Source of the DNA: Lachnospiraceae bacterium
GTDB lineage: Bacteria > Bacillota > Clostridia > Lachnospirales > Lachnospiraceae
Assembly (NCBI GenBank): GCA_949383255.1
Contig: CASJPF010000007.1
Span: forward strand, 1 to 64,000
DNA length: 64,000 bases
Direction of reading: 5' to 3'
Each line of letters starts with the position of its first letter. Position 1 is the first letter of the stretch. Positions 11,911-29,932 of this stretch are shown here, one piece after another. The position numbers and the translations under genes were made by a program. Under the pieces are notes generated by a model. It was not told where the DNA came from, did no database searches, and worked only from the letters and a program-made list of their open reading frames with translations.

Positions 11911-12162
11911 ATGGTTACGATACCAACGATAGATATGGTAAAGACAGGGCAGCACATCACGGAGCTGCGGGTTCAGGCGGGGTTGTCTGTGCGGCAACTG
12001 CAGGAAATTTTCGGATTTTCCACGCCACAAGCGCTATACAAATGGCAACATGGAACCGCGCTTCCTACAATTGATAATCTTGTTGTGCTGGCAGCAGTAC
12101 TTGGCGTGAAGATTGATGACATTCTGATTACTACGGATAGTTCAATACCAGTCAGTGCATAG
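11911..12162 (+). CDS. Small XRE-family DNA-binding protein
   Basis: This 83-residue single-domain Cro/CI-type helix-turn-helix protein has the segment LSVRQLQEIFGFSTPQALYK followed by PTIDNLVVLAAVLGVKIDDI, the standard XRE pattern. I chose ATG 11911 because AGGAGGG lies 6-7 nt upstream; an in-frame upstream ATG at 11875 has no ribosome site. Its position after rtcB suggests co-transcription. Targets are unknown. Confidence 0.85.
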   Translation: MVTIPTIDMVKTGQHITELRVQAGLSVRQLQEIFGFSTPQALYKWQHGTALPTIDNLVVLAAVLGVKIDDILITTDSSIPVSA

Positions 12163-25778: not shown

Positions 25779-27644
25779 ATGAATAAGAGTGCAAAATATT
25801 ATGAACTGCAGGCGCTTGATCTGTGGGATTTTCCTGCGCTCATTAAAAAGGCAAGGGAAATACAAGGAATCACACTGGAAGGTTTATGTAAGGATATCTG
25901 TTCGTCAAGTTTGATGGGCAGAATTGAAAAAGGAGAACGCCATGCCAATAAAGAACTTCGTGACCGGATTTTAGCAAGGTTAGGAGTGTGTTCTGACGGT
26001 TATGAGAATTTTCTGTTCTATGATGATTATCTGGTGTGGAAACAAAAGCAGAGGATTGTAAACGCCATTGAGAAGTCAGATTTTGAAGAGGCAGAAAAGT
26101 TGTTGGAAACCTATGATAAAGAGAGTGAGGAGGATAAACTTGGCAGACAGTTTTGTATGGTAATGCGAGCGCAGATTATGCAGAAACGTCATAAGGATAA
26201 AATGCAGATTGCGCGTATTTATGAGGAAGCTGTCAAGTTAACTGTTTCAGATATTGATAGTGGGTTGATAAAGAACCTTTGTCTTTCAGTGCAAGAGCTT
26301 GATATGATATTGGAATACGAGCGATATTGCCACCCAGACAGATTGGCTTCGCGGTGTGAGGAGATTCTGGCATATATCAGCAGCGAAGTGTTTGATACAT
26401 ACAGCTATGTAAAAATTTATCCGAAAGTTATTTACTATTTGTATATTAGTACAGCAGATAAAGATAGGGACTGGATTCGGTTGTTGCGCCTTAGCAGCGC
26501 AGGAATTGAGCAGTTGCGTACAACAGGAAGAATGTATTATTTCTGGGAGCTTTTGAAAATTAAGAAAGAAGGACTCACAAGACTTCTAAGTAATATGGGA
26601 AAGGATACAGACAGCAGGAAAAGAGAGGCACTTCAAAATGTGATTGGTACGACAGATGCATGGATGGAAGCACTTGATTTTGTGCATAATCTGTGTGGAA
26701 CGCATCAAAAAATGGAGACGTCTTGTTATCTATATCAGCAGAAGGAGGCTTATTGTATTAGTGATGTTATTCGCAGGCGGCGTGAGATGTTAGGGCTTAC
26801 CAAGAAAGCGCTCTGCAAAGATATCTGTTCTGAAAAGACCATTGGGCGTTTAGAGGCAAAGAAAACAAAACCACAGATTGATATTGTAAGGCAGTTGTTT
26901 GAACGGTTAAATTTATCCGGAGAGTATCAGAGATGGCAGATTGTAACAAAAGATGTAAAGGCATTTCCGATTGTAGATAAGATAGGGATTTGTGCTAATA
27001 ATCGTGATTTTGAAGAATTGGAGCGATTGTTAGTAGAGTTACAACAATACATATCTACAAAGAATTTAACGAATAGGCAATTCAAAGAAAGAATTGAATT
27101 AAATTTGAATTTGCGACAAGGTAAAATGACAAATGAGGAGGCAAGACAATGTTTGATAAAGATATTAGAATATACATTGCCATATAAAACCATAACAGAA
27201 ACAGGTGCAAAGTATTTAACTAATATTGAGATACAGTGCGTGCTTGATATCGCTATTAATGTCGGAAAATCAAGTATGAATAACAACTTTATTTCACTAT
27301 GCGAATTGTGTAAACAAATGGAAGAGGATGAAGGAATACCTGAACATATTGCAGTGTGGGAAATGATAATGACAATTATTGCTAGTATATATGGAAATAT
27401 GAGAGAATATGATAAATCAGATAAACTTGCCTTAAAGATTATGACAGAATGTATTCAATGTTATAGAATGAACACAATAGAAACCAATTTATATTGTATT
27501 TCTTGGAATAATCAACAACGTAGTAAGAAAAATATTCCTCTTCAAGAGGGATATCAAGAAGAAACATATTTAAGGAAATGTATTGAATGGTGTAAAATAA
27601 ACAAAAATGTATTTGCTGAAAAAGTGATAAGTCATAAATTATAG
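25779..27644 (+). CDS. Double-HTH regulator with helical-repeat domains (RRNPP/Rgg-like)
   Basis: This 621-residue protein has two XRE-type helix-turn-helix units, at about residues 20-70 (KKAREIQGITLEGLCKDICS...LMGRIEKGER) and 328-375 (RRRREMLGLTKKALCKDICS...TIGRLEAKKTKP). Each is followed by a long alpha-helical, TPR-like stretch (about 75-310 and 385-621). The halves are similar, suggesting internal duplication. HTH plus TPR is the layout of RRNPP peptide-responsive regulators (Rgg, PlcR, NprR). A 47-residue gene with a secretion-type leader lies convergently 175 nt downstream, so a peptide ligand is inferred. The ribosome site is weak. A damaged copy of its last 165 bp follows its stop. 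Confidence 0.75.
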   Translation: MNKSAKYYELQALDLWDFPALIKKAREIQGITLEGLCKDICSSSLMGRIEKGERHANKELRDRILARLGVCSDGYENFLFYDDYLVWKQKQRIVNAIEKSDFEEAEKLLETYDKESEEDKLGRQFCMVMRAQIMQKRHKDKMQIARIYEEAVKLTVSDIDSGLIKNLCLSVQELDMILEYERYCHPDRLASRCEEILAYISSEVFDTYSYVKIYPKVIYYLYISTADKDRDWIRLLRLSSAGIEQLRTTGRMYYFWELLKIKKEGLTRLLSNMGKDTDSRKREALQNVIGTTDAWMEALDFVHNLCGTHQKMETSCYLYQQKEAYCISDVIRRRREMLGLTKKALCKDICSEKTIGRLEAKKTKPQIDIVRQLFERLNLSGEYQRWQIVTKDVKAFPIVDKIGICANNRDFEELERLLVELQQYISTKNLTNRQFKERIELNLNLRQGKMTNEEARQCLIKILEYTLPYKTITETGAKYLTNIEIQCVLDIAINVGKSSMNNNFISLCELCKQMEEDEGIPEHIAVWEMIMTIIASIYGNMREYDKSDKLALKIMTECIQCYRMNTIETNLYCISWNNQQRSKKNIPLQEGYQEETYLRKCIEWCKINKNVFAEKVISHKL

Positions 27645-27645
27645 A

Positions 27646-27811
27646 AGCCAATTTAATTATATCATTTGGAATAATCAGAAACGTAATAAAAAAATATCCC
27701 TCTTAGAAAGGGATATCAAGAAGAAATATATTTAAGAAAATGTATTAAATGGCATAAAATAAACAAAAATACATTTGTCGAAAAAGTTATAAGTAATAAA
27801 TTATTTTAAAT
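27646..27811 (+). pseudogene. Degenerate duplicate of the 3' end of the preceding regulator
   Basis: From 27641 the sequence repeats 27477-27644 with roughly 80% identity, for example GGGATATCAAGAAGAAA (27531 region and 27709 region) and AAAATAAACAAAAAT. It has small deletions that break the frame. It looks like the surviving tail of a lost paralogue arranged in tandem. Confidence 0.8.
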
Positions 27812-27819
27812 TAATGAAA

Positions 27820-27963
27820 TCAGGTATGTAGATCTGTATTAGGATCTAAATCATGCATAGGCGTTACACCATAATCATCAATCTGTGGAAGTCCGCCAAA
27901 GAAATCTGCGTTCAAGGTAAATACAAGTGCTGCTAACAACACAACATTCATTAATTTTTTCAT
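27820..27963 (-). CDS. Small secreted-type peptide, possible signalling propeptide
   Basis: This 47-residue peptide has a KK start, a hydrophobic core (MNVVLLAALVFTL, about residues 5-17) and a short acidic, proline-containing tail (FFGGLPQIDDYGVTPMHDLD...). The start is ATG at 27963 (minus strand) with AGAAGG 7 nt before it; an upstream extension of the frame has no such site. It is convergent with the double-HTH regulator. By analogy to RRNPP systems, the C-terminal part could be exported, trimmed and sensed by that regulator. Alternatives are a RiPP precursor for the SPASM enzyme at 28661 (but it lacks cysteines) or a lipoprotein-like fragment. No family is recognised. Confidence 0.6.
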   Translation of the reverse strand: MKKLMNVVLLAALVFTLNADFFGGLPQIDDYGVTPMHDLDPNTDLHT

Positions 27964-28335
27964 AGTGAACCTTCTTTCTAAAAACTTTATCATTTGCAAA
28001 AGCATTCCGCTGACTGTTACATCAGCGGAACCGTTTAGGGAATTGGCTCTTCCTGTTTCCGTTGTGATAGGATGCAATGCATAACAATATTGATTGAGAA
28101 GTAAGAAAGCTTTTTGGGAAAATACAGCTTCCGATAAACCATACAAAATTTGAAGATGTATCAATATCTATTTAGGATTAGAAATGAATTCATAATCGAC
28201 ATAGAATATTAGAATTTAGCATAATACTTTAAATAAAGTGATGTTAAAATACATCAAATATTATAATATCATACACATCTGTATCAAAGTAAGTATGGAA
28301 ATACCTCATGCATTAAGAAACTAAGGAAGAGCTGA

Positions 28336-28437
28336 ATGCTTCGGTATCTTTATTTAACTCCATGCACAGTCAAAAATCAATGCCCAGAGTTGTCCGAATT
28401 ATGTTCTGTTTTTTGGACAACTCTGGGCATTGATTGA
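28336..28437 (+). CDS. Candidate 33-residue cysteine-containing peptide
   Basis: ATG 28336 follows AAGGAAGAG with good spacing and opens a 33-codon frame containing TPCTVKNQCPELSELC, three cysteines spaced x5 and x6. It lies about 220 nt upstream of the SPASM radical SAM gene on the same strand. It overlaps a 21-bp inverted repeat, so the frame may be a by-product of that structure. It is recorded only because a maturase needs a substrate. Confidence 0.2.
   Translation: MLRYLYLTPCTVKNQCPELSELCSVFWTTLGID
28375..28435. repeat. 21-bp perfect inverted repeat with 19-nt loop
   Basis: Arms at 28375-28395 and 28415-28435 are exactly complementary (core GCCCAGAGTTGTCC and its complement). There is a short T-tract on the minus-strand side (GATTTTTGA). 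It could be a minus-strand terminator or a mobile-element remnant. Confidence 0.85.
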
Positions 28438-28660
28438 TAAAATAAGAAATGGTACACTAAAAGTTACTAATAAGAGACTGGCTATGAAAGTGTCTTTAAA
28501 AAAGTTCAATAAGTTATTGTAGTATACTTAATATTATGTTTCAATTCTAATCGAATAGAACGCATTATTTGTATGCTATAATATAAAATATAAAGATTCT
28601 AAAAATCGAAAGAAAAATAGCGAACACACAAACATAAGATGAGAGGAGGGGAGACTTATT

Positions 28661-29932
28661 TTGAAAAAATCAAGATATTTTATTTCGACTCAGATAGATG
28701 ATTTTGTTTTATATTATAATCTGGTCAATGATACCTTGTTAAAACTTCCAGCAGATAAAAATGAAGGCTGCATCAAATGTCTGGAAAATCCAAATGATAG
28801 TACTTCTATATATTGGAGTAAACTGTACTCAGATAAATTTATTATTGATGACAATTTTGATGAGTTAAAGGAAACCCAGAGCAGGCACTGGAAGACGGTA
28901 AATAGTGGAGATCAACTGGATTTGACAGTAATCTGTACATTTGACTGTAATAGTGATTGCATATATTGCTATCAGAAAAATCTTACATTTCAATGTTTGG
29001 AGATGAGCGAAACAGATTTTGATGGGCTGTGCACATTTCTAAGTAAGGCTTCCCAGCAATATATTCATATTAATTGGTACGGTGGCGAGCCACTATTGGC
29101 AAAGGAGAAAATACTGCGTTTATGTGCAGAGCTAGACAAGGACAAAAAACATACTTACAGTTATTCTGTCTCGACAAATGGTTCCATATATGATGAGAAA
29201 TTTTTCCGCATGATGGAGCGCTATGGAATGACCAATGTGACTGTTTCGGTTGTCGGTATAGGCGAGGAGCACAATCAGTTGCGCCCTTCTGACATCTATA
29301 CTTCAGACAGCGTGATGCGCAATATTATTTTGATGACGCGACATACCAATGTTATAGTTAATTTGAATCTTTGCAAAAGCAATATAGAGCAAATCTCAGA
29401 AGTTTTTGAAGCGCTTTCTGGATATCGTTATTCCTCCCTTTCCTTTACATTTAGTCGTATTGTAAGCTATACTCACAAGCCTTGTGAGGAGATTGTATTA
29501 GATGTGGACACTTATATGAAACATGTGATTGCACTGTCAAATTGGGCATTGGATCATCGGTTCCGAATAAGTGATATGAGCTGTTTTCAAAATTTTGGTG
29601 TGTTTTGCGGGGTGTATGCAAAGCATAATTATGTGGTTGGACCGGGGCTGTATGTATATCAGTGTGATCGCTTTTACAATCCCAAAGACGCCTTTGCGCA
29701 GATTGTGAATGGTACTTTGACATACAATCAATATAATGCTGTAAGTAATGAGAAAGAATATTACATTGATCCATATCAGATAGAGGAGTGCAGAAATTGC
29801 AAAATTTTGCCATACTGCAATGGAGGATGTGATTATCTACGGAAAATTGGAAAGGACGCTTGCCCTCCTGAGAAAAATTATTTAGAAGATTATTTGAAAT
29901 TGTATTATCGCATATTTTATGAAGAACAGTGA
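28661..29932 (+). CDS. Radical SAM/SPASM peptide-maturase-like protein
   Basis: This 423-residue protein is of the SPASM radical SAM type that modifies ribosomal peptides. The SAM-binding [4Fe-4S] motif is C96-x3-C100-x2-C103 (CNSDCIYC), followed by WYGGEPLL (the GGEP motif) and SVSTNG. A C-terminal SPASM domain carries CRNCKILPYCNGGC plus further cysteines. Residues 1-90 may be a peptide-recognition element (FVLYYNLVNDTLLKLP). The start is TTG 28661, supported by a very strong GAGGAGGGGAG 8 nt upstream. The substrate is unknown. Candidates nearby are the 47-residue minus-strand peptide and the 33-residue cysteine frame. Anaerobic sulfatase-maturase activity is an alternative, but no sulfatase is present. 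Confidence 0.85.
   Translation: MKKSRYFISTQIDDFVLYYNLVNDTLLKLPADKNEGCIKCLENPNDSTSIYWSKLYSDKFIIDDNFDELKETQSRHWKTVNSGDQLDLTVICTFDCNSDCIYCYQKNLTFQCLEMSETDFDGLCTFLSKASQQYIHINWYGGEPLLAKEKILRLCAELDKDKKHTYSYSVSTNGSIYDEKFFRMMERYGMTNVTVSVVGIGEEHNQLRPSDIYTSDSVMRNIILMTRHTNVIVNLNLCKSNIEQISEVFEALSGYRYSSLSFTFSRIVSYTHKPCEEIVLDVDTYMKHVIALSNWALDHRFRISDMSCFQNFGVFCGVYAKHNYVVGPGLYVYQCDRFYNPKDAFAQIVNGTLTYNQYNAVSNEKEYYIDPYQIEECRNCKILPYCNGGCDYLRKIGKDACPPEKNYLEDYLKLYYRIFYEEQ

Follow-up and report, generated by a model that had tools for sequence, protein, structure and literature searches.

The 64,000-nucleotide stretch of DNA analysed here (the window, part of contig C7 in a Lachnospiraceae assembly of 169 contigs) contains a locus of three genes: a regulator of 621 amino acids, a convergent gene for a 47-residue peptide on the minus strand, and a gene for a SPASM radical S-adenosylmethionine (SAM) enzyme (Table 1). 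This locus is very probably a peptide quorum-sensing switch of the RRNPP type that would induce its own peptide gene together with the radical SAM gene. An original prediction, made from the letters of this DNA, had placed the three genes at the same positions and proposed RRNPP-type signalling. The proposal is supported by the homology of both regulator halves to PlcR, by the conservation of convergent peptides at related regulators and by the co-segregation of the peptide tail with the second half of the receptor.

A receptor of two fused protomers

The regulator consists of two RNPP protomers fused in tandem, of 315 and 306 residues. Searches of Pfam and the Protein Data Bank (PDB) with the whole protein returned mostly helix-turn-helix (HTH) matches, and the remaining relationships were revealed by splitting it into halves. 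When a family profile was built for each half from 23 sequences, the two aligned with one another over 262 columns at a probability of 99.8%, and for both the best match among PDB sequences was PlcR. Half 2 matched PlcR at 1.8e-13 over nearly its full length, and the tetratricopeptide repeat (TPR) domains of kinesin light chains at about 6e-6. Half 1 matched PlcR at 3.5e-9, PrgX at 8e-6 and other HTH regulators, among them the 'transcriptional regulator' entries 5w4m/4yv6 (3e-7 to 6e-7), which we take to be Rgg proteins. The two HTHs and two TPR-like halves of the original prediction are thus recovered by Pfam HTH_3 and the half profiles, the TPR content being known through such profile matches alone. 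The first HTH was not reported by Pfam when the window regulator was searched alone. Across the family, regulators are mostly about 592–666 residues long.

In several genomes the receptor halves occur as separate neighbouring genes of 285–396 aa (L122–L127). Adjacent pairs of single-HTH genes matching both halves lie at L124:4589-6630, L125:4808-6825, L127:5260-7379 and in L126, and two of the split pairs (L124, L127) have a convergent peptide. The paired single-HTH genes are likely the unfused form of the receptor.

The peptide gene and its pairing with the regulator

The 47-aa frame is a real gene. Its ATG is preceded by AGAAAGAAGG, and the encoded peptide begins with a K/R-rich stretch followed by a hydrophobic run. 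An in-frame TTG further upstream would yield 114 aa; the orthologues conserve the frame from the ATG. The tiny convergent gene with a secretion-type leader and an acidic tail, for which the original prediction had asked conservation of the frame at homologous loci, is accordingly found with conserved frame and start in the orthologous loci.

An orthologue of the regulator (at least 63% identity) is present in 13 of the 36 genomes of the same genus, the window's own included, at 14 loci, two of which belong to the window's bin. The gene metK lies immediately upstream of the regulator in all 12 orthologous loci whose contigs are long enough, and murA precedes metK in 11 of these 12. The bin includes a second, closely related species, represented by L053 and L054 (contigs C41 and C21 of G000); C41 stops just past the peptide gene and C21 begins 430 nt before the radical SAM gene. 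That these contigs carry a paralogue was considered and rejected, as murA (99%), metK (98%) and the gene order identify the orthologous locus of the second, co-binned species. The 78% regulator identity accordingly reflects divergence between alleles. Each of the two contigs was compared on its own.

For the pairing count, 76 loci (the window, L052–L068 and L102–L159) supplied 60 regulator frames no shorter than 560 aa. Counts over these regulators are not independent, since the proteins are related and their loci were picked by a match to P0001. A strict scan, which asked for an ATG, a ribosome site, two K/R, a hydrophobic run and a distance of no more than 600 nt, placed a convergent small leader-bearing open reading frame (ORF) at the 3' end of 40 of the 60 regulators. 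Of 364 other genes (≥250 aa) at the same loci, 4 were followed by one. The difference bears out the suspected co-occurrence of regulator and small peptide. Such an ORF lies near 43 of the 364 control genes in whatever orientation. The pairing rises to 44/60 with more overlap and distance and to 50/60 with a looser scan for start and ribosome site; the control rate of 4/364 applies to the strict scan only, the looser scans being uncontrolled. Shorter regulator-like frames (230–559 aa) had such an ORF in 3 of 22 cases.

The peptide families track the regulator clades. Most tails of clade A, that of the window, carry the motif '..G[IV]xP[ML]xD..', most of clade B '..[AS]PCxDxP..' and most of clade C '..ISxxxY..'. 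Among the frames of the strict scan, overlap between the peptide and the regulator's 3' end was seen for 12 of 13 in clade B and for 10 of 10 in clade C. In the window the two genes are separated by a gap of 175 nt, occupied by a decayed duplicate of the regulator's end (Table 1).

Apparent exchange of receptor half and peptide tail

The second half of the receptor and the peptide tail form a pherotype cassette. Per 50 residues, the clade-A receptors share a mean identity of 61–90% over the first 400 residues, which are mostly conserved, and of 51–60% over the last 220. Tail similarity (last 14 residues) correlated with that of the receptor's C-terminal half (C-half) with r 0.82 over 13 loci, G002 being excluded as its contig ends before the peptide. 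The partial correlation given the N-terminal half (N-half) was 0.80 (p 2e-4, 5000 permutations), and that of tail and N-half given the C-half was −0.15. Leader similarity tracks that of the N-half (0.80). In 12 of the 13 loci the nearest tail coincided with the nearest C-half, and in three with the nearest N-half.

Single pairs of genomes display the same pattern at the DNA level. The tail HDLDIETNFYI is common to G007 and G015, whose C-halves are 85% identical; the N-half of G015 is 97% identical to that of G017, yet the tail of G017 differs. From metK to about receptor codon 380, G015 and G017 are 97–99% identical in 16 of 17 comparison windows (94% in the other). From there to about peptide residue 33 identity falls to 61–70% (79% in one mixed window) and then returns to 93–94%, the finely mapped right border lying at the border of peptide leader and tail. 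A like island separates the window locus from C41 (83–94%, then 60–71%, then 90%). In six of nine receptor pairs of our choice identity dropped at aa 376–406, just after the second HTH; the other three are pairs with like tails. As the two genes lie tail to tail, sensor half and signal tail make up one contiguous piece, and the password and the domain that likely reads it appear to be exchanged together between species. Sister genomes that differ in little but the sensor half and the tail amount to a natural experiment on signal specificity.

The same correlation could arise from simple linkage, that is, from recombination beside the peptide gene without any pheromone specificity. Linkage could explain part of it because the segments are physically adjacent, and outside clade A it is weaker: the partial correlation is 0.40 in clade C (13 loci, p 0.001) and 0.26 in clade B (16 loci, p 0.03), where the correlation of the tail with the N-half is no weaker (0.33 given the C-half). 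Linkage as the whole explanation is nonetheless unlikely. The left border recurs just after the second HTH, which favours function over linkage alone, the finely mapped pair has its right border between leader and tail, and like tails stand in otherwise different backbones (G007/G015 and C41/G013).

The duplicate in the window's gap (27646–27804) covers about the last 55 codons of the regulator. It is possibly a scar of allele exchange.

A clade-specific inverted repeat as predicted operator

When the intervals between peptide and radical SAM genes were aligned, a single strongly conserved element emerged, made up of two arms and a spacer. A repeat scan (at most four mismatches per arm, spacers of 10–30 nt permitted) found 16 repeats in 14 loci, every one 55 bp long; the spacer always measures 19 nt, and its sequence varies. 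Towards the radical SAM gene, all 16 repeats have a TAnnnT box, mostly after TGn, at 20 nt from the arm (21 in L059). Towards the peptide gene, the window and the other loci inspected have a TTAAAT-like box, likewise at 20 nt. The window-type repeat is present at 12 of the 14 clade-A loci, both misses being at contig ends. At the same place, 8 of 17 clade-B loci have a CAAGGGACAGA-type repeat and 14 of 17 clade-C loci a ATGACGTTTT-type repeat. Repeat type and receptor clade never mismatched, except in one of 12 unclassified receptors. The inverted repeat is conserved and clade-specific.

In the window's own genome the arm occurs with 0–1 mismatch only at the window locus and on C21, the co-binned orthologue, and a dispersed repeat element was rejected on this ground. 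At three mismatches three lone arm sites appeared (reversed control, one). Among 35 genomes searched with at most two mismatches, paired arms were confined to the clade-A locus (8 genomes).

A terminator or RNA hairpin would also take the form of a long, nearly perfect intergenic stem-loop, and a run of 4–5 T follows the stem on the peptide side in the window and several other loci. The silence of a terminator scan is uninformative here, because its loops were limited to 3–8 nt. Such a role is very unlikely all the same: the repeat lies between divergent genes, neither of which needs a terminator, and its radical SAM side in the window has no T-run. Moreover, the spacer keeps a length of 19 while its sequence varies, −10-like boxes stand at 20 nt, and the repeat type tracks the receptor clade. 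The element is thus better described as a predicted operator, and as such it makes the predicted output testable. The locus of G034, which lacks the radical SAM gene, has two 55-bp copies of the repeat (L068:11686-11740 and 12102-12156). A TATAAT box follows each copy, and the stretch between the copies contains no obvious gene.

The radical SAM enzyme

The radical SAM gene starts 698 nt from the peptide start with a TTG preceded by GAGGAGGGG. Residues C96, C100, C103 and twelve further cysteines of its product are invariant across 10 orthologues. The intact SPASM gene with TTG start and strong ribosome site, expected about 700 nt on, is confirmed. The SPASM domain model scored above its cut-off. 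The greatest similarity among NCBIfam families was to Clo7bot (TIGR04334; 140 bits, cut-off 600) and TIGR04463 (128 bits, cut-off 525), and none of the best 25 of 47 families matched reached a full-length maturase cut-off. In contrast to these SPASM maturases, the window enzyme is a member of neither family and no adjacent precursor of its own was recognised; a separate precursor was sought in the leader and downstream at the loci examined, with no convincing candidate.

An orthologue (62–87% identity) follows the operator in eight loci and is cut by contig ends in three more. The gene is absent from two of the 13 genomes, G032 and G034, both of which have regulator and peptide, and in G003 its place is taken by a gap of Ns. 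Clade-B and clade-C loci had no relative clustering with the window enzyme among the nearest genes listed. Over 10 loci (G002, G003, G032 and G034 excluded), similarity of the radical SAM protein followed the receptor N-half (r 0.97) and not the tail (−0.02). Given its absence from G032 and G034, the lack of a clustering relative among the nearest genes listed for clades B and C, and the lack of co-variation with the tail, the gene would be a target rather than a required maturase, and the enzyme is best read as a regulated output of the switch.

Two other roles were weighed. The small peptide might be the precursor of a ribosomally synthesized and post-translationally modified peptide (RiPP), with the radical SAM enzyme as its maturase, the regulator as cluster regulator and the tail as a modified antimicrobial. 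The neighbourhood of peptide and SPASM enzyme is conserved, and the window's radical SAM leader showed no other small ORF with a ribosome site. We consider this highly improbable in view of G032 and G034, which keep peptide and receptor without the enzyme, of the clade-B and clade-C pairs that lack its relatives among the nearest genes listed, of the enzymes of G015 and G017, 98% identical beside strongly different tails, and of the hydrophobic, secretion-like leader. Rather unlikely, too, is a modification of the pheromone by the enzyme, for instance within the conserved G[IV]xP[ML]xD part, to yield a radical-SAM-modified RRNPP signal. The predicted shared divergent operator would suit such a role, as would the conservation of GxxP[ML]xD in tails beside the enzyme while both enzyme-less loci have GISTMSD. 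Most clade-B tails, however, retain the proline without a neighbouring enzyme, and enzyme and tail do not co-vary. The original label of a signalling and modification locus therefore stands in its first part; modification is unproven, with G032 and G034 lacking the enzyme and the tail varying independently of it.

A relative of the enzyme (47% identity) in G022 (C12) adjoins a 31-aa ORF ending in AAESSCCRGHI (L066:8506-8601), a candidate RiPP precursor, so that the enzyme family may act on small peptides. This relative also neighbours a second radical SAM enzyme and ABC-transporter-like genes.

Proposed mechanism

In the regulated-output reading, the hydrophobic leader would export the 47-aa propeptide, which would then be trimmed to a short acidic C-terminal pheromone and re-imported. 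In the cytoplasm the pheromone may bind the second TPR-like half of the 621-aa receptor. With two DNA-binding domains per receptor, a pair of receptors would bring four HTHs to the 55-bp repeat and would there occupy the position of the −35 region of two back-to-back promoters. From there the receptor is predicted to activate the peptide gene leftwards, as self-induction, and the radical SAM gene, the presumed output, rightwards. One recombination tract could exchange both the receptor's 3' end and the peptide tail, because these lie end to end. Such a swap would change the password and leave the DNA-binding parts, leader, operator and target untouched.

Besides the modest correlations in clades B and C, several observations weigh against this switch. 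TPR repeats are weak in Pfam (5 of 29 members, best 0.013). For ten of the 60 full-length regulators the looser scan, too, gave no convergent peptide. L063, L120 and L148 run up against contig ends and L102 leads a tandem pair; the other six (L110, L113, L115, L118, L119, L135) have no explanation. At two mismatches, 10 lone operator arms lie elsewhere in 9 of the 35 genomes, with none in the reversed control. B-type repeats were found at only about half of the clade-B loci (8/17), and as the repeat patterns were derived from the loci counted, the informative part of the clade comparison is its empty off-diagonal.

Table 1 Features of the signalling locus in the window
Feature	Position	Strand	Basis
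Regulator/receptor, two fused RNPP (PlcR/Rgg-like) protomers, 621 aa	25779..27644	+	profile comparisons of halves
First HTH domain, approximate, aa 18-70	25830..25988	+	half-1 profile against HTH of PlcR, PrgX, ComR
Second HTH domain, aa 331-383	26769..26927	+	Pfam HTH_3, 1.6e-9
Second helical TPR-like half, aa 384-621, variable putative sensor half	26928..27641	+	co-exchange with peptide tail; PlcR and TPR profile matches
Decayed tandem duplicate of regulator 3' end, about 85% nt identity to 27477-27642	27646..27804	+	nucleotide comparison
Terminator-like hairpin downstream of peptide gene, within 3'-end duplicate	27693..27717	-	consensus match alone
Peptide gene, 47 aa, MKK-hydrophobic leader and acidic tail GVTPMHDLDPNTDLHT	27820..27963	-	conserved frame, ribosome site
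Peptide tail, residues 31-47, predicted pheromone-containing part	27823..27873	-	alleles differ here
−10-like box TTAAAT, 20 nt from repeat, peptide side	28352..28357	-	reading of flanks; weaker consensus match
55-bp inverted repeat, two 18-bp arms CAATGCCCAGAGTTGTCC, 19-nt spacer, predicted operator	28378..28432	.	alignment and repeat scan
−10-like box TACACT, 20 nt from repeat, radical SAM side	28453..28458	+	reading of repeat flanks
SPASM radical SAM enzyme, 423 aa, TTG start, strong ribosome site	28661..29932	+	profile matches, orthologue comparison

Comparison with known systems

Like PlcR/PapR and other RNPP/RRNPP systems, the locus combines protomers of HTH and helical repeats, homologous to RNPP proteins, with a small leader-bearing propeptide gene directly adjacent to the receptor gene; it differs in having two protomers in one chain. 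Streptococcal Rgg and ComR are single-protomer regulators. In contrast to Rgg and its short hydrophobic peptides (SHPs), the receptor described here is a fused double protomer and its peptides are 40–60 aa long with a leader and an acidic tail.

According to the accessible part of the RRNPP_detector survey, validated receptors measure 285–473 aa and the search range was 250–500 aa (PMC10075063). The 621-aa receptor exceeds this range, into which each half alone would fit; on the length rule as given there, such receptors would be missed by the survey, which may be why they were overlooked. In Rgg/SHP group III, as far as the consulted part of the source goes, the peptide gene is convergent and overlaps the 3' end of the regulator gene (PMC13361665), and the title of that paper links Rgg/SHP with RaS-RiPPs. 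The convergent arrangement is shared by all our clades, the overlap by clades B and C and not by the window. In ComR of Streptococcus suis, the available text describes a DNA-binding domain identical in two serotypes, with all variation in the C-terminal half, and pherotypes of ComR/ComS that are genetically transferable (PMC4072589). By comparison, the variation described here is confined to one half, the second, of a fused double receptor beside a convergent peptide. Lachnospiraceae appear in the accessible part of PMC10626739 under other quorum-sensing pathways. Our literature search, from which most subscription papers were outside, found no paper joining 'RRNPP' and 'Lachnospiraceae' and nothing similar in the titles and starts of abstracts listed.

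The clade-B operator and defence-like genes

The arm of the clade-B operator gave 73 matches in 12 genomes, receptor loci included, and none in the reversed control. The window's own genome has it at six places, two of which are the clade-B receptor loci on C45 and C56. The C45 repeat (L181:12163-12182) also faces RdrA-RdrB of RADAR. Further arms face a ThsB-like TIR gene (C12, L178:9025-9044), a metallophosphoesterase-STAND gene (C32, L179:5518-5537) and a SLATT-DUF4062 operon (C37, L180:11335-11354), and one with two mismatches (C7:97552) precedes a small HTH gene. In relatives (L212–L251) arms face TIR, LmuA-like, nonribosomal peptide synthetase-like, ATP-grasp/radical SAM and glycosyltransferase genes, and many sites face no recognisable gene. 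PADLOC models, applied to 14 of the 40 facing genes (four at 1e-3, 10 at 1e-5), matched five, one of them weakly, in an uncontrolled comparison. The arrangement suggests that anti-phage defence may be under peptide control via the clade-B operator, and directs attention to phage defence governed by peptides in gut commensals.

More speculatively, and at present doubtful, these loci could make up a separate RRNPP branch of gut Lachnospiraceae, characterized by covalent pseudo-dimer receptors, long clade-specific operators and a traded password cassette. Its clades might command different social weapons: a radical SAM enzyme modifying the pheromone or another product, and, in clade B, a regulon that takes in anti-phage defence, with RADAR, Thoeris-like TIR, Lamassu-like and STAND genes sharing one operator.

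Wider distribution

The P0001 search gave matches in 21 of 60 genomes, the window's own counted, and all 33 loci from named genomes carry Lachnospiraceae titles. Over 13.9 kb the window is 99.8% identical to JAAZZQ010000085.1 (Lachnospiraceae bacterium isolate bin44o), a metagenome-assembled genome. A wider family search with one genome per genus found matches at 1e-20 or better in 20 of 297 other genera, and five of nine inspected loci of other genera had a convergent peptide (looser scan, uncontrolled). More distant fused or split receptors at L134, L133 and L123 stand beside a radical SAM gene and an ABC transporter, in the manner of RiPP clusters. Another, distant receptor of the window's own genome (L118) neighbours a short radical-SAM-like ORF (G000:C27:18436-18819) related to the window enzyme (30% over 122 aa).

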